Below, piece by piece: positions 8,152-20,566 of a stretch of 64,000 bases of DNA. Position 1 is the stretch's first letter, and each line of letters starts with the position of its first letter. A model generated the notes under the pieces. It saw only the letters and a list, made by a program, of their open reading frames with translations. It had not been told where the DNA came from and did not search any database. The DNA comes from an uncultured Pseudomonadota bacterium. GTDB taxonomy: Bacteria > Myxococcota_A > UBA796 > GCA-2862545. Location: the NCBI GenBank assembly GCA_913061235.1, contig CAJXTB010000003.1, positions 124,001 to 188,000 on the forward strand. The letters run 5' to 3'. The position numbers were made by a program, and so were the translations under genes.

Positions 8152-9489
8152 CTAGATCAGGTTGACCAACTCCTGCAGCGTCTCATCAGCAGTGCGGACG
8201 GTTCCTGCATTTGCCGAGAAGCTACGCTGGGCCTTAATCATTGCAATAAACTCGCTCTCCAAGTCGGTATTCGACGCTTCCAAGGCACGACTTACCACAC
8301 TTCCATTCGCGCCCTGTTCCGCGTTTCCTACCAGCGGTTCACCCGACGCAAACGTGGCCCGGTACATGTTTCCGCCCGTGCGCTCAAGCTGGTTGGTAGC
8401 CGCAAATGTCACGAGCGCCACGCCTCCCACAACTCGGTTCTGGCCGTTGTCGTAGATGGCTTCGATCTGACCATCCGGCTGAACGGCGAGGTCAACGAGA
8501 TTTCCCTGTGGAAAGCCATCTTGCGAAAGACTGGTGAGTGAGCTCTCTTCGCCAGACACGCGAATCGCACCGTTGTCTGTTGGGTTGCCCGCTGCATCCA
8601 AGCCGCCGTCGAACGTAAACGTAAACGGCTCAGCGCCGCCCCAGTTCCACGCAGTGGTGGTGTCGGTCTGGGTGAATGCAACCATGTCACCGGTGCCAGA
8701 GAAGCTCATGGTGCCGCCGCTAAGCTCGAAGGCTTGGCCAGGCTCACCGTCAGGCGCACCATCTCCGTCCAGATCGATTTCGCCGCCGTCAACCACCGCC
8801 TTCCACGTCCAGTCTGTAGAGGATGTGGCCTCAAAGACTACGTTGACCTCGTGCGGCATGCCCAAGCTGTCGTAGACGGTGAGTGAGGTGTCGTAGTCGG
8901 CTGCATCGGACAGCTCGGTGAGCCCCATTGCTGCTGCCGTTCCGTCGAAGGTCCCCGCTGCAATGGGAGATGACGTGATGTCGGGGTCGGCGGTGAGCGT
9001 CGCGGCCATAGACACGGTCGACGTCGCTTGCTGCGGATAGGGACCGGTATCGAGCTGCAGCTCACCGAAGTTGCTAGAGAGCACGCCATCTTCCGCTTGG
9101 TAACCTTGCAGTCGTGCACCAGACAAGTTGGTCACGAACCCATCACGGTCCAGCTGGAAGCTGCCGTCGCGGGTGTACATCGACTCTCCGCCCGCCGAGA
9201 CCGGGAACAGCCCATTGCCGACGACCGCCATGTCCAGCACACCGCCCGTCTGGGTCAGTGCGCCCTGCTCAAAAGATGAGCTGATGCCGCCAAGCATCGC
9301 TCCCCGTCCAAGGGTGGCGGGGCCGGATGCCGAGCCCATCTTGCCAGGCATCATGTCCACGTAGAACGCTCGGCTCGACTTGAACCCTGTAGTGCCAACA
9401 TTGGCAATATTATCGCCGATGACTCCGAGGGTTGAACTACTAGCGCTCATTCCACTAGCGCCGGTTCCAAGCGTACTAAATAGCGACAT
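8152..9489 (-). CDS. flgE: Flagellar hook protein FlgE
   Basis: FlgE builds the flagellar hook. The 445-residue product has the conserved N-terminal rod helix (MSLFSTLGTGASGMSAS, then VIGDNIANVGTTGFKSSRA) and the matching C-terminal coiled coil (ALEASNTDLESEFIAMIKAQ, ending DETLQELVNLI), which form the D0 domain. The centre contains FlgE-type beta domains with YDSLGMPHEVNV. ATG at 9489 has GGGAG upstream. No other flagellar gene is present anywhere in the window, so the gene is isolated from the usual hook-basal-body cluster. It is separated from the MOSC gene by 94 bp. Confidence 0.95.
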   Translation of the reverse strand: MSLFSTLGTGASGMSASSSTLGVIGDNIANVGTTGFKSSRAFYVDMMPGKMGSASGPATLGRGAMLGGISSSFEQGALTQTGGVLDMAVVGNGLFPVSAGGESMYTRDGSFQLDRDGFVTNLSGARLQGYQAEDGVLSSNFGELQLDTGPYPQQATSTVSMAATLTADPDITSSPIAAGTFDGTAAAMGLTELSDAADYDTSLTVYDSLGMPHEVNVVFEATSSTDWTWKAVVDGGEIDLDGDGAPDGEPGQAFELSGGTMSFSGTGDMVAFTQTDTTTAWNWGGAEPFTFTFDGGLDAAGNPTDNGAIRVSGEESSLTSLSQDGFPQGNLVDLAVQPDGQIEAIYDNGQNRVVGGVALVTFAATNQLERTGGNMYRATFASGEPLVGNAEQGANGSVVSRALEASNTDLESEFIAMIKAQRSFSANAGTVRTADETLQELVNLI

Positions 9490-9583
9490 TCAGGCTCCCT
9501 TTGTTGAAGCCATGTCGACCGGACTCGCCGCCAGTTAAGAAAAATTGGTAGCTTTTATTCGCGGCACCAGAGCACGCCGGCCT

Positions 9584-10105
9584 CTATGCCAGCTTCCCCG
9601 GGGTACTGGGGCCGACAATCGCGATGACCTTGTCGCCAATGCGGACCTCACCGGCTTCAAGGACCCGTGTGGTGATGCCACCGTGGCCGCGCATGGCATT
9701 GAAGCCGCCCGTCCCAAGCGTCTCTTCCATACGGCTACAGGGGTCGCACGGGCCTGTGTACTCAAGCACAGCAGTACCCAGGCGGAAGGTCTTGTTCTTC
9801 AGCGCCAGCAAGTTCAGCCCTGAGACCACCACGTTGCGTCGCAGGTCTGCAGGGGTCAGCGCGTCCAAGCCAGCCATTGAGCGAATCGCATCAAGGTGTT
9901 CGGCCTGAATGAGCGTCACCTGACGCTTGCCCCGACCCGAGGAGGCATGACGGTCGCCATCCAGGCCGGTACCCACCTGAATCGTCGCATGTTCCACCTC
10001 GTTAATCGGCGCCCGACGCGCCGGAGATAGACCAATCCACGTCACCGTGCCCTGCTGCGGGATGGTGTTGAGCAGATGTTGAACGGTCGAAAGGTCTTCT
10101 GACAT
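9584..10105 (-). CDS. MOSC domain protein
   Basis: A stand-alone MOSC domain of 173 residues. MOSC domains are beta-strand-rich folds found in molybdenum cofactor sulfurases and in YiiM-like molybdoenzymes; they carry sulfur or molybdenum cofactor via a conserved cysteine. Visible motifs are GLDGDRHASSG near residue 47, RRNVVVSGLNLL, and CDPCSRMEE with the expected cysteine, then RGHGGITTRVLEAGEVRIGD. It is the last gene of a five-gene packed operon, three bases after gor. The substrate cannot be told from sequence. Confidence 0.9.
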   Translation of the reverse strand: MSEDLSTVQHLLNTIPQQGTVTWIGLSPARRAPINEVEHATIQVGTGLDGDRHASSGRGKRQVTLIQAEHLDAIRSMAGLDALTPADLRRNVVVSGLNLLALKNKTFRLGTAVLEYTGPCDPCSRMEETLGTGGFNAMRGHGGITTRVLEAGEVRIGDKVIAIVGPSTPGKLA

Positions 10106-10108
10106 GGC

Positions 10109-11470
10109 TCAGTCCTCGGTGACCGGATGGCGCATTGTGACGAACTCTTCAGCCGCCGTTGGGTGGACTCCGATGGTCGCATCGAACATGGCCTTGGTGG
10201 CGCCGGCGTGCATTGCAACGGCCAAGCCCTGAATGATCTCACCGGCATCCGGCCCCACCATATGGCAGCCAATGACGCGGTCATTCGCCTTGTCGACAAT
10301 CAGCTTCATCATCGTCTTCTCCTCGCGACCGGTCATCGTATGACGCATGCCACGGAAGCGACTGCGGTAGGCCTCGATGTCGTGGCCTGCCGTGCGCGCT
10401 TGCTGTTCGGTCAGTCCTACCGTTCCAACGTTCGGCTGCGAGAACACCGCTGTAGGGAGAATCGTGAGGTCAACCGTGTCCTGCGCGGCACCATACATGC
10501 GCTTTGCAAAGGCCATCCCCTGCTCCAACGCCACCGGCGTGAGTTCCGGCGTACCAATGACGTCTCCGACAGCGTGAATGTGCGGGATGTTCGTCTGGAA
10601 GTCGTCGCCCTCAACAATGATGCTTCCGTTCGCACGCATCTTCACACCGGCGGCGGCTAGGTTGAGCTTCGCAGTGTTCGGTGCCCGGCCTGTCGCCCAC
10701 ATCAGACAGTCGGTCGTGAGCTGGGTCTTGTCGTCAAGGTCGACACACAGGGTGCCGTCGTCGTTCTTCATGACGTGAATGACGCTCGTTTCTACGCGCA
10801 CATCAATGCCCTTCTTACGCATCTCTTCGCGCAGAGTCACCTGAATATCTGCGTCAAACCCCCGCAGAACGTGTGCGCTCCGCTGAAGCACAACAGTCTG
10901 TACACCCATGCCATTGAGGATGCCGGCAAACTCAACCCCAATGTACCCGCCACCAACAATGGCAATGCGCTTCGGCAGCTTGGCCAAGCTGAACAGGTCG
11001 TCGCTGACCAACCCCAGCTCGGCGCCCGGAATCGGCGGCCGTATGGGCTGTCCGCCCGTGGCGATCAGAATGCGCTCGGCGGTGTAGGTCTTGTCCCCGA
11101 CCTTCACGGTGTGCTCGTCTACGAACGTCGCGAATCCTCGGACAACCTGGACACCTGTGCGCTCCAACAGATGCTGGTAGATGCTATTGAGACGGCTAAT
11201 CTCGCGGTCTTTGTTGGCAATGAGCGCGGACCAATCGAAGGTAGGCTTGGTGAACGACCAGCCGAATCCCTTCGAGTCCTCAACAACATCGCCGTACTCC
11301 GAGGCGTAGACCATCAGCTTCTTCGGCACACAGCCAACGTTGACGCAGGTGCCGCCCATGGGGCCAGCCTCCGCCACAATCACCTTAGCGCCAAGACTTC
11401 CAGCAAAGCGCGCAGCACGCACTCCGCCGGAGCCAGCGCCGATAACAAACAGGTCGGCGTCGTAGCTCAA
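10109..11470 (-). CDS. gor: Glutathione-disulfide reductase (class I flavoprotein disulfide reductase)
   Basis: The FAD enzyme reduces oxidised glutathione with NADPH. The 453-residue product shows the FAD motif GAGSGGVRAARFA at 11-23, the redox pair GGTCVNVGCVPKK (C42 and C47), the second dinucleotide motif GGGYIGVEFA, and the C-terminal HPTAAEEFVTM with the His-Glu pair of the other subunit. The HPTAAEE ending and length fit glutathione reductase better than dihydrolipoamide dehydrogenase. The start codon is TTG at 11470. It follows the YbjN-like gene by one base and is probably translated by coupling. Confidence 0.92.
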   Translation of the reverse strand: MSYDADLFVIGAGSGGVRAARFAGSLGAKVIVAEAGPMGGTCVNVGCVPKKLMVYASEYGDVVEDSKGFGWSFTKPTFDWSALIANKDREISRLNSIYQHLLERTGVQVVRGFATFVDEHTVKVGDKTYTAERILIATGGQPIRPPIPGAELGLVSDDLFSLAKLPKRIAIVGGGYIGVEFAGILNGMGVQTVVLQRSAHVLRGFDADIQVTLREEMRKKGIDVRVETSVIHVMKNDDGTLCVDLDDKTQLTTDCLMWATGRAPNTAKLNLAAAGVKMRANGSIIVEGDDFQTNIPHIHAVGDVIGTPELTPVALEQGMAFAKRMYGAAQDTVDLTILPTAVFSQPNVGTVGLTEQQARTAGHDIEAYRSRFRGMRHTMTGREEKTMMKLIVDKANDRVIGCHMVGPDAGEIIQGLAVAMHAGATKAMFDATIGVHPTAAEEFVTMRHPVTED

Positions 11471-11471
11471 A

Positions 11472-11957
11472 TTAGGCCTCCGTAATGGTCTGCCCGTCTC
11501 TAGCGCCTTGCAGCGTGCCGACCAGCGCTAAGGCTTCATCAACTGTCGCCCCGTGCTTGAGCATGGCCTCGATACCCGGCCATGTGCCGTCTAGTGCAAA
11601 CACCGCGCGGTAGACCAAGTTCCGAATCAACGCCTCATCCGGCGCGACATCGTGCAGGTCGAGACCCACCTTGAACCGCAGCTCACCTGTCCGCACATCC
11701 AGCTCAAAGTTGCCAACGGCAACGCCAGAGTTGGCCCGCGTGGCAAAATCCAGGACCTTGAGCCGGTGCGCCGGTGCGACGGAGCCAGGAACCAGTGCAT
11801 AGGCAGTGATGCGCTCACGCTCGTCATCTGGAATGACCACGGCGTGGAACGCGAGATGTTCGCCGCGGACTCGAGTCAGCAGCATGCCGTCCTCGTGGGT
11901 GGCGACATCCCAGCCATCTGCCTTAAAGAAGGCCAAGCAAGCGTCTGTAAGACTCAC
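11472..11957 (-). CDS. YbjN-like domain protein, copy 1
   Basis: A 161-residue protein that starts at GTG 11957, overlapping the stop of its upstream paralogue by four bases (GTGA). The sequence, with YALVP, RLKVLDFATRANSGVAVGNF and GELRFKVGLDL...EALIRNLV, resembles the YbjN/type III chaperone-like fold. It shares the block FxTRANxGxxxGxFxLxxxxGExxFxxxxD and the LIRNLVY segment with the neighbouring gene, so the two are tandem paralogues. Function is unknown; location next to gor suggests a role linked to redox stress, which is inference only. Confidence 0.75.
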   Translation of the reverse strand: MSLTDACLAFFKADGWDVATHEDGMLLTRVRGEHLAFHAVVIPDDERERITAYALVPGSVAPAHRLKVLDFATRANSGVAVGNFELDVRTGELRFKVGLDLHDVAPDEALIRNLVYRAVFALDGTWPGIEAMLKHGATVDEALALVGTLQGARDGQTITEA

Positions 11958-12409
11958 TGTGCGTCCTCCACAGCAGCAATCGCCTGTTCAGGAGTCGCCT
12001 CGCCGCTGAGCACCATGGCAATGCCGGGCGCGTAGGCGTCCATTGCCAAACAGTTGGTATACACAAGGTTTCTGATGAGTGCGGTGTTGATATTCACCCC
12101 GTCAACGTCTGCGCTGGTGCGAAACTGAACCTCGCCCGAGTCAGACTCCAGGGTGAAGCAGCCAAGCGGCAGACCGAAGTTGGCCCGTGTGATGAACTCC
12201 AACACTCGGACCCTCGCTTCCGGATGGACCAAACGGCCATAGAGCGTTGCGAAGGTCACCGTCTGCAGGTCTTCGTCCACCCGAGCCAGTGCAGCGAAGC
12301 TCGTCGACTTGCCTTGGTAGCTCGTGGTCAACGCCCACTGCTTGGGCAAGGCCTGATACGGCCAGGCATCTTCATCAAAGAAGCGTTCCATTGTATCGAA
12401 TAGCGACAT
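11954..12409 (-). CDS. YbjN-like domain protein, copy 2
   Basis: A 151-residue paralogue of the next gene. It begins MSLFDTMERFFDEDAWPY and contains RVLEFITRANFGLPLGCF and NTALIRNLVYTNCLAMD, the same blocks as copy 1. A longer frame to 12583 exists, but it reads through the 3' end of the esterase gene, so I chose the ATG at 12409, one base after the esterase stop. Both copies are translated in sequence within the operon. Confidence 0.75.
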   Translation of the reverse strand: MSLFDTMERFFDEDAWPYQALPKQWALTTSYQGKSTSFAALARVDEDLQTVTFATLYGRLVHPEARVRVLEFITRANFGLPLGCFTLESDSGEVQFRTSADVDGVNINTALIRNLVYTNCLAMDAYAPGIAMVLSGEATPEQAIAAVEDAQ

Positions 12410-12410
12410 T

Positions 12411-13445
12411 CTATTCGTCTCCGGTGAGCGCAGCATACAAGTACGGAAGCGACACGTCCATTCGCGGGTCTGTTCCACGATGCGTCCCGGAAAAGGCTTC
12501 CCAGACGTGGCCAATTCCCAGCTCGCACAGGCGGTCGACGAAGCGCCGCGCACCGTACTGCAGATGGTACTCGTCTTGATCACCGCAGTCGATGTACAGG
12601 CCTTTGAGGGCGGACAATGCCTGCTGACTGGCTGACTTCTCCAGCATCACGAGGGGGTCGTGTTCGCACCATCGCTGCCAGGCCTGCTCATCGACCTCGC
12701 AGGTGTAGGGGTCGAAGGGAAGACGGATTCCGTACGGTGCGGTGGGGTCTGGGTCGTACGACGCACAAAGTGCTAGCAGCATCATGCAGTGGAAGTCGGA
12801 GCCCTTAAAGGTGGGACGGTTCCAGATGTTCTCCAGCCACGCCGCCGGGTCACCGCCGGTCGATTGAAGCCGTGTGCACAGCTCCGGAAAGCCAGAGCGC
12901 ACGCCCCACTCCCAACCGATATCGCCGCTATGACACGCCACAGCTCCCCAGGTCTCCGGGTACAACATGCCGTGAACCAGGGCACCGTAGCCCCCAGATG
13001 ACTTGCCAAAGAGCCCACGATGCTCGCGCCCTCTTCGCACCCGGAATGCGCCTTCAAGCGCCGGAACAAGGTCCTGGGTCAAGAAGGTTGCCCAGTTTCC
13101 AACGGCAGGTGTGTCGATGTACTGGTTGCCGCCTAGGCGCGTGAAAGCGTCCGGCATTGCCAGAACGACAGGCCCCATCTTGCCCTCAGCCACCAAGCGG
13201 TCGATTCGCTGGGGAAGGGTCTCCTCAAAGGCTCGCCACGCCGTGCGCTTGAGCCCGCTGCTGCTAAACGCGGCCAAGTCGACCAGAAGTGGGTAGTCCC
13301 GATCCCCGTCGTCGTACCCCTTCGGGAGGTACACAGACACACGGCGCTCGTGAGGATCTCCCAGGAGATTCCCCGCCAACGCGTCAGAGCGCACGGTGAT
13401 GTGAGTGAGGCGTCCTTGGGGGGCATTGAAGGGGTGGTTCGGCAT
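12411..13445 (-). CDS. Alpha/beta hydrolase, esterase-D / enterochelin-esterase type
   Basis: A 344-residue cytoplasmic hydrolase of the putative esterase family (Fes/esterase D type). RRVSVYLPKGYDD opens the alpha/beta core, the nucleophile elbow is GKSSGGYGA (family pattern G-x-S-x-G), and the late FSGTHRGTD supplies the catalytic histidine. DCGDQDEYHLQYGA is the expected acid region. ATG at 13445 is chosen over one five codons upstream. It is the first gene of the five-gene operon running down to the MOSC gene. Substrate unknown; S-formylglutathione-type substrates are conceivable given the glutathione reductase downstream, but this is speculation. Confidence 0.85.
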   Translation of the reverse strand: MPNHPFNAPQGRLTHITVRSDALAGNLLGDPHERRVSVYLPKGYDDGDRDYPLLVDLAAFSSSGLKRTAWRAFEETLPQRIDRLVAEGKMGPVVLAMPDAFTRLGGNQYIDTPAVGNWATFLTQDLVPALEGAFRVRRGREHRGLFGKSSGGYGALVHGMLYPETWGAVACHSGDIGWEWGVRSGFPELCTRLQSTGGDPAAWLENIWNRPTFKGSDFHCMMLLALCASYDPDPTAPYGIRLPFDPYTCEVDEQAWQRWCEHDPLVMLEKSASQQALSALKGLYIDCGDQDEYHLQYGARRFVDRLCELGIGHVWEAFSGTHRGTDPRMDVSLPYLYAALTGDE

Positions 13446-13517
13446 GGCCCGTGCTACCACAAGGGGTGGTCCTCACGCGCGCCACGCAGCGAGATAGGGG
13501 GCGCGCCCGGAGGACCT

Positions 13518-14498
13518 ATGAAGCTCGCTACTCTCGACAACGGAACCCGCGACGGGCAGCTGCACATTGTGCGCCGCGACAACACCGCAATGGTCAGCGC
13601 TGCTGATATTGCGCCAACCCTACAGGCCGCGCTGGACAGCTGGGATGCACTGGCGCCCAAGCTCATCGAGCGATCTGAAGCGCTCAACGCAGGCACCGTT
13701 ACTGGTGTCCCCGTAGACATCAGCAAGCTGCGTTCTCCCCTACCCCGCGCCTACGAGTGGATTGACGGCTCCGCCTACATCAACCACATCGTTCTGGTGC
13801 GCAAAGCCCGAAACGCAGAGCCGCCGGCCACGCTCGAGACCGACCCGCTTGTCTACCAAGGCGGTAGCGGTGTGCTGCTAAGCCCGACTCAAGACATTCC
13901 CCTAGCCAATGCCGACTGGGGCCTCGACTACGAGTCGGAGATCGCTGTAATCCTTGGCGACACACCGCAGGGCACCACGAAGGACAACGCGCTTGGCAAC
14001 GTCAAGCTGCTGATGCTGGTGAACGACATCACCCTGCGGAACCTGATTCCGACAGAGCTCAAGAAGAACTTCGGCTTCTTCCAGAGCAAGCCTGCAACTG
14101 CCTTCTCGCCGTTCGCCTTGACCCCAGACGAGCTCGGCACCGCTTGGCATGACGGCCGTATTCACCTGAACCTTGAAAGTGAGCTGAACGGCACGGTCAT
14201 TGGTGATGTGAAAGCCGGACCGGAGATGCACTTCAGCTTCGCCGACCTCATCGCCCACCTGTGCAAGACCCGCAGCTACACAGCCGGCACCATCTTGGGC
14301 TCGGGCACCGTCTCCAATACCGTTCCAGAGGCTGGCGTCAGCTGCCTTGCCGAGCGCCGCATGCGTGAGACCATCGACACCGGCACGGCAACGACTGGCT
14401 TCTTGAAGGTTGGCGACCGAATCCGGATTCAGATGCACAACGCTGACGGCGACAACCTGTTCGGCACCATCGACCAGACGGTTGTGGCGTTCAAGTGA
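13518..14498 (+). CDS. fahA: Fumarylacetoacetate hydrolase family protein
   Basis: FAH splits fumarylacetoacetate into fumarate and acetoacetate, the last step of tyrosine breakdown. The 326-residue product has the family core: DWGLDYESEIAVIL with the metal-binding Glu pair, VNDITLRNLIP, FFQSKPATAFSPFAL and GTILGSGTVSN. The start at ATG 13518 has GGAGG eight bases upstream; longer frames overlap the esterase on the other strand. Its stop overlaps the maiA start (GTGA), so the two are coupled. With maiA beside it and hpd 3.5 kb away, the tyrosine-pathway assignment is better than that of a generic family member. Confidence 0.88.
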   Translation: MKLATLDNGTRDGQLHIVRRDNTAMVSAADIAPTLQAALDSWDALAPKLIERSEALNAGTVTGVPVDISKLRSPLPRAYEWIDGSAYINHIVLVRKARNAEPPATLETDPLVYQGGSGVLLSPTQDIPLANADWGLDYESEIAVILGDTPQGTTKDNALGNVKLLMLVNDITLRNLIPTELKKNFGFFQSKPATAFSPFALTPDELGTAWHDGRIHLNLESELNGTVIGDVKAGPEMHFSFADLIAHLCKTRSYTAGTILGSGTVSNTVPEAGVSCLAERRMRETIDTGTATTGFLKVGDRIRIQMHNADGDNLFGTIDQTVVAFK

Positions 14499-15115
14499 CG
14501 CTGTACGGCTACTGGCGCAGCAGCAGCACGTGGCGCGTTCGCATTGGTCTGGCCCTCAAAGGGTTGGACTACACGAACGAGCCGGTAAACCTGCTGCACA
14601 GTGCCCAACTCGGTGACGAACACCGCGCGCGCAATCCGATGGGTCAAGTACCGGCGCTAGCAGACGGCGACGTTGTGCTGACCCAGTCGCTGCCCATCTT
14701 GGAATACCTTGAAGAGCGGTACCCACAAGTACCGCTACTTCCAGGGTCTTATGCACAGCGCGCCAAGATTCGCGCCATGGCTGAGGTCGTCAACAGCGGC
14801 ATTCAGCCGCTTCAGAACCTCGCTGTGCTCAAGCACCTCGACACCCACAGCGTGGACCGAGGCGACTGGTCACGGCACTGGATCGATACGGGCCTGCGCG
14901 CGCTCGAGTCCATGGCCACCGGTTCCGGTCCGTTCTTGGTGACGGACGGCCCCACCCTCGCTGAAGCCTGTCTGATCCCACAGCTGTACAACGCCCGACG
15001 CTTCAAGATGGACGTCGCCGCCTACCCGCGTCTTGCAGTGTGCGAGGCGGCCTGCCTGGCCCTGCCGGCATTCCAGCAGAGCCACCCGGACCAGCAGCCC
15101 GACGCCGTCGTCTAG
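14495..15115 (+). CDS. maiA: Maleylacetoacetate isomerase (zeta-class GST)
   Basis: The enzyme isomerises maleylacetoacetate to fumarylacetoacetate using glutathione. The 206-residue product begins MTLYGYWRSSSTWRVRIGLA; the SSSTWRVR block matches the zeta-class signature SSxxxxVR with the catalytic serine. NPMGQVPAL and TQSLPILEYLEERYP are standard GST N-domain motifs, and the C-domain has the helix TLAEACLIPQLYNA. It starts at GTG 14495 inside the fahA stop. Its TAG stop shares a CTAG tetranucleotide with the convergent MscS gene. Confidence 0.92.
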   Translation: MTLYGYWRSSSTWRVRIGLALKGLDYTNEPVNLLHSAQLGDEHRARNPMGQVPALADGDVVLTQSLPILEYLEERYPQVPLLPGSYAQRAKIRAMAEVVNSGIQPLQNLAVLKHLDTHSVDRGDWSRHWIDTGLRALESMATGSGPFLVTDGPTLAEACLIPQLYNARRFKMDVAAYPRLAVCEAACLALPAFQQSHPDQQPDAVV

Positions 15116-16941: not shown

Positions 16942-17062
16942 GAGACCTCAATGGATGGGGTTTTCGCGGGCATACTCCGACTACACCAAGCAAGCATGCT
17001 GTCAGTCCATCACCATCGATCGGAGCAACCGGATACGCTCCGCCCCCCACAACGGAGGCCAC

Positions 17063-18220
17063 GTGTCCAAGCGCGAATCTCTCGGCATCAAGCGACTTCA
17101 CTCCCTGCACTACTACGTGCGTGACCTGGAGCGCATGACGCGCCTGTTCGTTGACCGTCTCGACTTCATTGAAGTCGGCCGGTCGTCCGCAGAACGCACC
17201 GCAGCAGGGCGGCAACAATCTGTCGCCTTTGCCGCTGGCGACGCCGTCTTCACGTTCAGCGCTCCGCTGGACGATACCGCTCGTGCCGCGCGGTTCCTCA
17301 ACAAGCACCCCGAAGGTGTTGGCACCATCGTCTTTGAGGTTGCCGACTGCGACCATGCCCTCAAGGTCATCGAGTCCCGCGGCGGCACCCCCATCACAGA
17401 CGTGCAGACCACTACGGACGACAACGGCACCTTCCGTACGTTCTCCATCACCACTCCCTTCGGTGACACCACCTTCCGATTCGTTGAATCTGAAAAATAT
17501 GATGGCTTGTACCCGGGTTTTGTCAAGACGGCTCCGCGCCCCAATGGCAACAGCTTCGACATCTCGCACATCGACCACATCACCAGCAACTTCCCAACGA
17601 TGGCCCCAGCGTTGTTGTGGATGGAGCACGTTCTTGGCTTCGAACGCTACTGGACAGTCGAGTTCCACACAGACGATGTGGCCGGCGACAGAGACCATGG
17701 CTCTGGACTCAAGTCTATTGTGATGTGGGAGCCCGAGAGTGGCGTGAAGTTCGCCAACAACGAGCCTAAGCGTCCGTTTTTCCGACGCAGCCAGATCAAC
17801 GTGTTCAGCGAAGAACACCGCGGCGCCGGCGTTCAGCACACCGCCCTTGTTGTGAAGGACATCGTGACAAGCGTCCAGACCTTGCGCGAGCGCGGCGTGG
17901 AGTTCATGCCCACTCCCGATACCTACTACGACGCCTTGCCCGAACGCCTGAAGACCTGCGGCATCGGTGAAATCGACGAAGACATTGAAGTCCTGCGCAA
18001 GCATGGTGTTCTGGTCGACGGCGACCAAGACAAAGCGTACATGTTGCAGATTTTCATGAAGGAACAAGCCAGCCAGTTCAACGCACCCGAGGCTGGACCG
18101 TTCTTCTTGGAAATCATCCAACGCAAGGGAGACCAAGGCTTCGGCGCTGGAAACTTCCGTGCTTTGTTCGAGAGTATCGAGCGCCAACAGGTTGCTGAAG
18201 GCAAGGTTTCGCCGTCGTAA
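17063..18220 (+). CDS. hpd: 4-hydroxyphenylpyruvate dioxygenase
   Basis: The Fe(II) enzyme converts 4-hydroxyphenylpyruvate to homogentisate in tyrosine catabolism. The 385-residue product starts at GTG 17063 with GGAGG just upstream and begins MSKRESLGIKRLHSLHYYVRD. Iron ligands are visible in the C-terminal domain: HIDHITSN, GVQHTALVVKDI and FFLEIIQRKGDQGFGAGNF, the last being the hallmark of the family. A longer frame to 16328 has no support and overlaps the channel gene. Homogentisate dioxygenase, the next enzyme, is not encoded in the window, although fahA and maiA are close. Confidence 0.96.
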   Translation: MSKRESLGIKRLHSLHYYVRDLERMTRLFVDRLDFIEVGRSSAERTAAGRQQSVAFAAGDAVFTFSAPLDDTARAARFLNKHPEGVGTIVFEVADCDHALKVIESRGGTPITDVQTTTDDNGTFRTFSITTPFGDTTFRFVESEKYDGLYPGFVKTAPRPNGNSFDISHIDHITSNFPTMAPALLWMEHVLGFERYWTVEFHTDDVAGDRDHGSGLKSIVMWEPESGVKFANNEPKRPFFRRSQINVFSEEHRGAGVQHTALVVKDIVTSVQTLRERGVEFMPTPDTYYDALPERLKTCGIGEIDEDIEVLRKHGVLVDGDQDKAYMLQIFMKEQASQFNAPEAGPFFLEIIQRKGDQGFGAGNFRALFESIERQQVAEGKVSPS

Positions 18221-18311: not shown

Positions 18312-19637
18312 GTGCTACTCGCACTCGCAGCACTGGCTATGGCCAGCGGTACCGCGGATATCGAGCTTCTTCCGCCACTTGCATCAGAGGTCGTTCCCGG
18401 AGTTCCGGAAACAGCCTCAACCGTTCGCGGAATGGTGCGCGTGAATGTTGGGCTCCAGTACGAGCTTGACCCCCTCGTGGCATCGGAAGAGGGCACCGAA
18501 TTCGGCGCCGTCGTCCATCACCGCGTGGGTGGGTTCCTCGCAGCCCAGTTCACCCCAGCAAAGCGTGTGTCCTTGGACATCGCTATTCCCCTGGCTGCCC
18601 AGTTCGGCAACCAGGTGGGCTACCTGTCGGGTGACGGCGTGGGTCTGCAAGATCCCGTGCTTGGCGTGAACTTCGGTCTGCAGAGCAGCGAAGGTTCCGA
18701 CCTCGGCCTGCGTATTGCCCTGTCCGCTCCCATCGGCGCCAAAGAAATGTGGCTCGGTGATGCTGGCGTTCGCGGCACCGTCGCTCTGAACGGTCGTGTC
18801 GGAACCAAGGTCATCGCTGGCTGGGCATTGGGTGCCAACATCCGAGACGCCTCCAACCAAGATGACTTCTTGGCCCTCGGGACCGAGTTCTGGCTCAACG
18901 CCGGCGTTCGCATCCCAATCGGCCAAGTCGAGCCCCTCGTCTTCGTCGCGGGTCGTTCTGGCCTACGCGGCGTCGTAGACGGCAGCCCGACCTTCACTAT
19001 CGAGCCTGGCATTGGCGCTCGCTACAACCTGACCGAAGAGTTCGCCCTGCAAGGCACTGTGGGTCGTGGCGTCACCAAAGGCTACGGCGCAACCGACTTC
19101 CGCGGTCGGATCACCCTCACCTGGCGCAAGGCCCCAGCTCCCGAGCTGCCGCCGATTGTCCAAGTGATCGAAATCGAAGAGCCGCCAGACGAGCTGGTCA
19201 TCCAGTTCGCGCCCGAGCCCGAGCCCGAGCCACCGGCACCACCACCCCGTGTTGAGATTGCACAGCAAGTGGTCTTCGGCATCAACAACGACCTCATCCC
19301 GCCGGCCATGCTGGTGAAGATTGATGAAGTCGCGGCCACCATGCTGGTCAACAAAAACATCGACCACGTGGTCATTGAAGGTCGCGCCAGTGACGAGGCC
19401 TCCTTCGAATACAACTACGCATTGTCCGAACGACGAGCTCGCGCAGTATTCGAAGCCTTGGTCAAGAAGGGCATCCACCCGGACCGCCTGTCCTACCGAG
19501 CAATGGGTGAGGTTCGCGCCGCCGGAACTGCCGACCCTCAAGATCGTATCGTGACCTTCGAAGTCACACGCTATGCTGACACCCCACCTGAAAGGGCGCC
19601 TGTAGCGACACCCTGGAACGGAGCACGCGGACAATGA
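18312..19637 (+). CDS. OmpA-family outer membrane protein
   Basis: A 441-residue outer membrane protein starting at GTG 18312 with GGAG upstream. After a short hydrophobic leader, residues 20-275 alternate in the way of a beta-barrel (many VG/GV turns and aromatic ends such as GRITLTW). A Pro/Glu linker follows (EPEPEPPAPPPR). Residues about 325-430 form an OmpA C-terminal domain, with VVIEGRASDEASFEYNYALS and RRARAVFEALVKKGIHPDRL, which binds peptidoglycan. A Thr/Pro tail ends the protein. The stop overlaps the start of the next gene (ATGA), so the two are coupled. Confidence 0.9.
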   Translation: MLLALAALAMASGTADIELLPPLASEVVPGVPETASTVRGMVRVNVGLQYELDPLVASEEGTEFGAVVHHRVGGFLAAQFTPAKRVSLDIAIPLAAQFGNQVGYLSGDGVGLQDPVLGVNFGLQSSEGSDLGLRIALSAPIGAKEMWLGDAGVRGTVALNGRVGTKVIAGWALGANIRDASNQDDFLALGTEFWLNAGVRIPIGQVEPLVFVAGRSGLRGVVDGSPTFTIEPGIGARYNLTEEFALQGTVGRGVTKGYGATDFRGRITLTWRKAPAPELPPIVQVIEIEEPPDELVIQFAPEPEPEPPAPPPRVEIAQQVVFGINNDLIPPAMLVKIDEVAATMLVNKNIDHVVIEGRASDEASFEYNYALSERRARAVFEALVKKGIHPDRLSYRAMGEVRAAGTADPQDRIVTFEVTRYADTPPERAPVATPWNGARGQ

Positions 19638-20566
19638 TGATTCTACTGCTGACCAGCTTCTTCGCGTTCGCCCAAGACACCGACTGCATGTCAGAGCCAG
19701 CGACGGACATCAACTGCAATGGCGTCGTCTACGAAGACGAGCCTCCCGTTGACCCGACTCTGGACCTGTGTGCCCAAGCCATCGGCCTAAACCCAGATGC
19801 TACAAGCCAAGACTGGTTCTACGACTACGCGTCGTTCGGCTGCCAGTACTACCTAGGCGAGCAAGAAGCAGACGAAGACGGCCTTGGTGGTGGCAATATC
19901 AGCATCTCCAGCGGCCCCGACGCACCCGACCGAAGCGTCACCCTGCTCTGCGACAACTGCCCGGAAGACTTCAATCCAATGCAGGAAGACGTGGACTGCG
20001 ACAACGTTGGTGACCTCTGCGACAACTGTCCAGAGATCAGCAACCCCAACCAGTTTGACGCAGACATGGATGGCATCGGCGACGACTGCGACCTTTGTCC
20101 ACGCATCCCGTCGGACAACTCCGACACAGACGGCGACCTTCGCGGCGACCAGTGCGACAACTGCGTCGACCTGCCCAACCCTCTTCAGGGTGACACGGAC
20201 GAAGACGGCTTCGGTGATGTCTGCGACACCTGCCCCGGCTTGGTCGACCCAGGCCAAGAAGACGAAGACGGCGACGGCCGCGGCGACCAGTGCGACAACT
20301 GCTTGGGCATGCCCAACACCGACCAGTCCGACCTTGACCAGGACGACCTCGGTGACGCCTGCGACTTGTGCCCGGAAGTGTTCAACCGCAACCGGAACCC
20401 TGGCGGAGACGTCGACGGTGACGGTATCGGTGATGCTTGCGACAACGGCTTGACCGTTCACGGCGGAGGCGCTTCCTTCGGCTGTTCCTCTACCGGCTTG
20501 GCCCCAGGCTTGGCACTTGGCTTCGGCTTGCTGATGTTCCCATTGGTTCGTCGCCGCCGCAGCTAA
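19634..20566 (+). CDS. Thrombospondin type 3 repeat protein with MYXO-CTERM-like tail
   Basis: A 310-residue exported protein. A signal peptide (MMILLLTSFFAFAQD) leads to a Cys/Asp-rich region of about six calcium-binding repeats of the form DxDxDGxGDxCDxCP (for example DADMDGIGDDCDLCPRIP and DEDGDGRGDQCDNCLGMP). The C-terminus has a Gly/Ser/Cys patch (GASFGCS), one hydrophobic helix and the cluster RRRRS, which is the tripartite pattern of MYXO-CTERM sorting tails, here with a single cysteine. It is cotranscribed with the OmpA gene and may be surface-anchored. The TAA stop is also the left flanking copy of a target-site repeat of the element that follows. Confidence 0.88.
   Translation: MMILLLTSFFAFAQDTDCMSEPATDINCNGVVYEDEPPVDPTLDLCAQAIGLNPDATSQDWFYDYASFGCQYYLGEQEADEDGLGGGNISISSGPDAPDRSVTLLCDNCPEDFNPMQEDVDCDNVGDLCDNCPEISNPNQFDADMDGIGDDCDLCPRIPSDNSDTDGDLRGDQCDNCVDLPNPLQGDTDEDGFGDVCDTCPGLVDPGQEDEDGDGRGDQCDNCLGMPNTDQSDLDQDDLGDACDLCPEVFNRNRNPGGDVDGDGIGDACDNGLTVHGGGASFGCSSTGLAPGLALGFGLLMFPLVRRRRS

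Follow-up and report, generated by a model that had tools for sequence, protein, structure and literature searches.

The window analysed here, a stretch of 64,000 nucleotides from an uncultured bacterium (contig CAJXTB010000003.1), carries five open reading frames at positions 9584-13445, all on the minus strand, which in the order of transcription encode an esterase, two YbjN-family proteins (YbjN-1 and YbjN-2), a glutathione-disulfide reductase and a MOSC-domain protein. The coordinates and strand of these five genes agree with those given in an earlier, sequence-only reading, and the gaps that it listed between them (1, −4, 1 and 3 bases in transcription order) were matched exactly upon re-measurement from the ORF coordinates. 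The cluster is flanked on one side by flgE (8152-9489) and on the other by the divergent fahA-maiA pair (13518-15115), the two genes of which lie on the plus strand and overlap by 4 bases. Together with a 4-hydroxyphenylpyruvate dioxygenase gene at 17042-18220, likewise on the plus strand, fahA-maiA makes up a tyrosine-catabolic cluster.

The best anti-Shine-Dalgarno pairing upstream of the start codons amounted to −6.6 kcal/mol for YbjN-1, −9.3 for YbjN-2, −9.5 for the reductase and −5.9 for the MOSC gene, and each of these four ribosome-binding sites sits within the end of the preceding gene. As a background, 1500 start codons were sampled on the same strand of the window, of which 18.6% reached −6 kcal/mol or lower and 2.9% reached −9 or lower. 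At the head of the cluster, the ATG of the esterase gene at 13445 shows poor pairing (−2.8) and a GTG located 15 bases upstream shows better pairing (−5.9), which makes 13460 a possible start of the esterase. Judged from the coordinates, the intergenic space 13461-13517, assigned to neither strand and shared with the divergent fahA-maiA, would be the sole room for a promoter immediately upstream of the cluster. A consensus scan of 9300-13700 returned no promoter-like and no terminator-like site, a result of little weight, as promoters of another type may be in use in the lineage. Gaps of at most 5 bases were found in 10 of the 30 co-directional gene pairs of the window, a base rate that derives from a rough gene caller whose threshold dropped low-scoring ORFs, and four of these ten pairs belong to the cluster. 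With 6/26 of the other pairs equally tight, such packing is thus common in the window, yet four such gaps in a row are still unusual. From this gene anatomy, the five genes likely constitute one transcription unit, and the suggestion that all five are made together appears well placed as far as co-transcription is concerned.

The reductase, esterase and MOSC protein

The reductase gene (10109-11470, minus strand, TTG start) encodes 453 residues, and its product was assigned from the NCBIfam model NF004776 and from solved relatives. The protein matches NF004776 over its full length with 608.3 bits, above the cut-off of 480, and scores below the cut-offs of both TIGR01424 (578.6 bits vs 606) and TIGR01421 (480.6 bits vs 556); its best solved-structure matches are glutathione reductases. 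Hallmarks of glutathione reductases are a redox CxxxxC motif and a C-terminal HPT-EE. The window protein has GGTCVNVGCVPKK as its redox motif and a C-terminal HPTAAEE, both located in its sequence and in an alignment with 3o0h. By family, it is a genuine glutathione reductase. It shares with gor (glutathione-disulfide reductase) the full-length match over the NF004776 cut-off but differs in being encoded within a five-gene cluster, a setting found at none of the nine relative loci. At E ≤ 1e-90, the reductase was detected in 9 of the 57 other relatives (10/58 with the window's own genome). The window's genome also contains a glutathione-synthetase-type ATP-grasp match (E = 6.8e-64), and matches to the glutathione synthetase ATP-binding family were obtained in 63/63 genomes of the order, the weaker of which may represent related ATP-grasp enzymes.

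The esterase gene (minus strand; 12411-13445 with the ATG start, or 12411-13460 with the GTG start) encodes an alpha/beta hydrolase of the Pfam family Esterase (PF00756, 59.9 bits, cut-off 22) with the nucleophile motif GKSSG. Its solved relatives comprise 8z91, named 'Esterase' (E = 2.2e-33), and 7xrt, a ferulic acid esterase (E = 4.3e-25), and in sequence the protein resembles the ferulic acid esterases. An assignment as S-formylglutathione hydrolase was rejected, as TIGR02821 gave only 18.4 bits against a cut-off of 281.7. The last gene of the cluster (9584-10105, minus strand) encodes a 173-residue MOSC-domain protein (PF03473, 61.6 bits, cut-off 22.7), for which no solved relative was found at E ≤ 0.01 and none of the thiol-specific features tested was present.

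The tandem YbjN genes

YbjN-1 (11954-12409, minus strand, 151 residues) matches PF10722 with 29 bits (cut-off 22). YbjN-2 (11472-11957, minus strand, GTG start, 161 residues) gave no match in the same scan, though 40 of the 41 members of its alignment do match, and was assigned as a paralogue of YbjN-1 with the aid of its predicted fold. Of the two tandem YbjN-like proteins described previously, only the first passes a Pfam threshold; the second is supported by 37% identity to YbjN-1 and by the predicted fold.

In the AlphaFold2 model of YbjN-2 (pLDDT 89.9), the elements follow the order alpha-beta3-alpha-beta2-alpha, and a short additional strand is present. No YbjN structure was retrieved when solved structures were searched with a sequence profile from the YbjN alignment; fold comparison did find such structures, and Foldseek matched the model to AmyR (5fr7), E. 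coli YbjN (6vu7), DR1245 (4h5b) and 2plg, with a best E per structure of 6.8e-4 to 4.4e-3 and TM ≤ 0.70 by target. The model also matches many type III secretion chaperones. YbjN proteins are classed with the TY-type chaperones in PMC9503650, and DR1245 is described in PMC3575483. The predicted fold of YbjN-2 and the Pfam match of YbjN-1 are shared with this YbjN/TY-chaperone superfamily (AmyR, DR1245, T110839 and E. coli YbjN), whereas the tandem divergent pair sets the window apart.

YbjN-1 and YbjN-2 form a weakly supported group (88/43) in a 57-row tree. Their branches are very long, measuring 1.48 and 2.85 where the median is 0.37, so that long-branch attraction may account for the grouping. 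The pair fits an old duplication followed by fast divergence, perhaps yielding a heterodimer. A further YbjN-like copy in the same genome (G000:C17:99686-100111) gave a match that crosses an in-frame TAG, and a shorter Pfam match at this place is free of the TAG.

Besides the window, directly adjacent YbjN copies were observed once among the 117 loci with a YbjN located by the profile, namely in Anabaena sp. UHCC 0204 (L090, 6794-9020); in one other genome (G222) two copies lie about 1.3 kb apart. The survey of close same-strand neighbours of YbjN covered 55 of 75 by Pfam scan, the 20 left out being mostly short ORFs and also some longer ones, e.g. L078:8407-9420 and L090:2060-6733. Nitroreductase was the commonest family among the scanned neighbours (6/55), which were otherwise varied. 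Genes of about 170 residues were seen directly downstream of YbjN, with gaps of 0 to 5, in the Anaerolineae loci L092, L127, L138, L140, L151 and L152, and their size and location make it probable that they are the six nitroreductase matches. In a relative (L234), YbjN and a RimK-type gene are located about 2 kb from each other.

In E. coli, ybjN is found in the unit ybjC-nfsA-rimK-ybjN beside grxA. This unit is SoxS-activated with paraquat and OxyR-repressed according to PMC4207228, and PMC3181261 places enterobacterial ybjN after nfsA or rimK. The window cluster is similar to the E. coli unit and its divergent grxA in that YbjN shares a unit with an NADPH-dependent flavin oxidoreductase and lies near a glutathione-linked gene; in contrast, the E. 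coli unit has another reductase and a single YbjN, and is without esterase and MOSC genes. Common ancestry of the two arrangements is not indicated. A literature search for a link between actinobacterial YbjN and mycothiol synthesis found nothing, and no weight is placed on such a link here. Across lineages, YbjN proteins are argued in PMC5398634 to act through protein binding, with partners that differ from lineage to lineage.

Gene neighbourhoods in relatives

Matches to the esterase (E ≤ 1e-20) and to the MOSC protein (E ≤ 1e-15) were obtained in 28/58 and 13/58 relatives, respectively, and the YbjN profile at E ≤ 1e-8 matched 19/63 genomes of the order, the window's own genome being counted in each case. 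A phylum search with the same profile covered 332 genomes, 43 of which gave a match at E ≤ 1e-15; the 40 YbjN regions taken from the phylum and order matches are a subset of all hits. In six-frame searches, no other cluster member was detected within 1.5 kb of the reductase (0/9 relative loci), the esterase (0/27) or the MOSC gene (0/11, with 11 of 12 loci covered). Likewise, none was detected near YbjN at any of 139 loci (119 + 20) searched over up to 8 kb per side, flanks often being shorter than 8 kb where contigs end. The 119 loci (79 + 40) include three other YbjN places of the window's own genome, and the loci L093 and L187 are probably one contig. As a positive control, fahA was found to adjoin maiA in 13 of 17 relative maiA loci, and the method can hence detect a conserved pair at that distance. 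Conservation of the cluster across relatives was rejected, since no neighbour pair recurs with the reductase, the esterase, MOSC or YbjN as bait. A conserved link between maiA and the reductase was rejected as well, no reductase being present within 1.5 kb of the 17 relative maiA loci.

Within the genomes examined, neither the family nor the order shows conservation of the five-gene cluster. A gene order conserved in no relative had been named beforehand as the outcome that would speak against a functional unit, and this is the outcome among these genomes for all four baits. Relatives with several of the components, e.g. G024 and G012, carry them on different contigs; many relatives are fragmented drafts, in which placement on separate contigs is no proof that genes lie far apart. 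Of the 63 genomes of the order examined, only the present one belongs to the window's genus. Conservation limited to closely related species would therefore give the same picture, and the cluster could still be conserved inside the genus. The five-gene arrangement is undescribed among the matches listed for a literature search combining glutathione reductase, operon, MOSC and YbjN, and a search on glutathione reductase gene neighbourhoods in myxobacteria returned nothing.

Possible roles of the cluster

The interpretation that we favour, with somewhat better than even confidence, is that the cluster is a real, lineage-private operon of genes that lie apart in the relatives examined, and that it co-expresses a glutathione reductase with a probable YbjN-type chaperone pair and two enzymes of unrelated chemistry, the genes having expression in common rather than a pathway. 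As the relatives examined are without the arrangement, the operon was probably assembled locally and is not likely to be a conserved detoxification machine. The five genes would be transcribed as one unit from the space of 57-72 bases shared with the divergent fahA-maiA, the operon having apparently been put together from genes that are separate in these relatives. The reductase would, in line with its family, keep glutathione reduced using NADPH. Fold and literature suggest that YbjN-1 and YbjN-2 probably form dimers, perhaps with one another, and that they may bind client peptide segments with no need for ATP, a mode of action proposed both for YbjN and for class I type III chaperones. The esterase and the MOSC protein, to go by their families, would each have a chemistry of their own, hydrolytic for the former and of a molybdenum-cofactor or sulfur type for the latter.

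A dedicated glutathione or electrophile-stress unit, in which the esterase cuts thioesters or esters, the YbjN proteins shield enzymes, the reductase regenerates glutathione and the MOSC protein detoxifies N-hydroxylated or sulfur compounds, is considered unlikely. It is consistent with the real glutathione reductase assignment, with the glutathione-synthetase-type ATP-grasp match in the same genome (a family found throughout the order) and with the divergent maiA, which matches its model with 244 bits (cut-off 171) and which we take to be a member of a glutathione-dependent enzyme class. The location of E. coli ybjN in an oxidative-stress-regulated operon beside grxA, as given in PMC4207228, points in the same direction; however, the linkage is conserved in none of the relatives examined, and the esterase falls far under the cut-off of the S-formylglutathione hydrolase model. 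The glutathione- or thiol-linked detoxification unit put forward in the sequence-only reading does not find backing in an esterase that fails this score, a MOSC protein free of the thiol features tested and a set of genes of which no pair recurs. Such a unit is possible but unsupported: the case for it comes from a single gene and from loose ties between YbjN and redox stress seen in other bacteria.

Quite unlikely, in our estimate, is that the YbjN pair serves as a specific chaperone of one operon product, the reductase or the esterase, in the manner of the class I type III chaperones that are encoded beside their clients. The predicted fold of YbjN-2 agrees with such a role, as do the client-specific peptide binding proposed in PMC5398634 and the occurrence of YbjN elsewhere near nitroreductase, another flavin enzyme (the 6/55 noted above, and nfsA in enterobacteria). 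However, the six nitroreductase cases appear to be all from Anaerolineae and so amount to roughly one origin, and YbjN is absent near the reductase in 9/9 relative loci. A more novel reading takes the tandem to be an old local duplication that became a fast-diverged, obligate heterodimeric chaperone in a redox operon, made together with glutathione reductase. This would be a further independent case in which YbjN is tied, under stress, to an NADPH reductase that depends on flavin, and we regard it as very unlikely. The type III chaperone-like fold predicted for YbjN-2 could also be read as that of an export chaperone for the flagellar hook protein, the gene of which (flgE) lies on the minus strand 94 bases downstream of the MOSC gene; but no FlgE relative was found near any of the 139 YbjN loci, and PMC5398634 describes YbjN proteins as being without evidence of a secretion role. 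We deem this role hardly credible.

The locally assembled operon that we favour is a single unreplicated arrangement, and its main lesson is that close spacing of genes does not by itself demonstrate a pathway. The YbjN family is widespread and its fold has been solved, but there is no agreement on a client. Operons that make YbjN together with a well-understood enzyme point to candidate clients that can be tested; should the reductase be the client, the YbjN family would gain an enzyme partner.

Elsewhere in the window, a plus-strand gene at 19634-20566 encodes a protein with many D-x-D-x-D repeats, followed by a C-terminal Cys, a hydrophobic stretch and an Arg-rich tail, an ending which we take to look like a myxobacterial surface-sorting signal.
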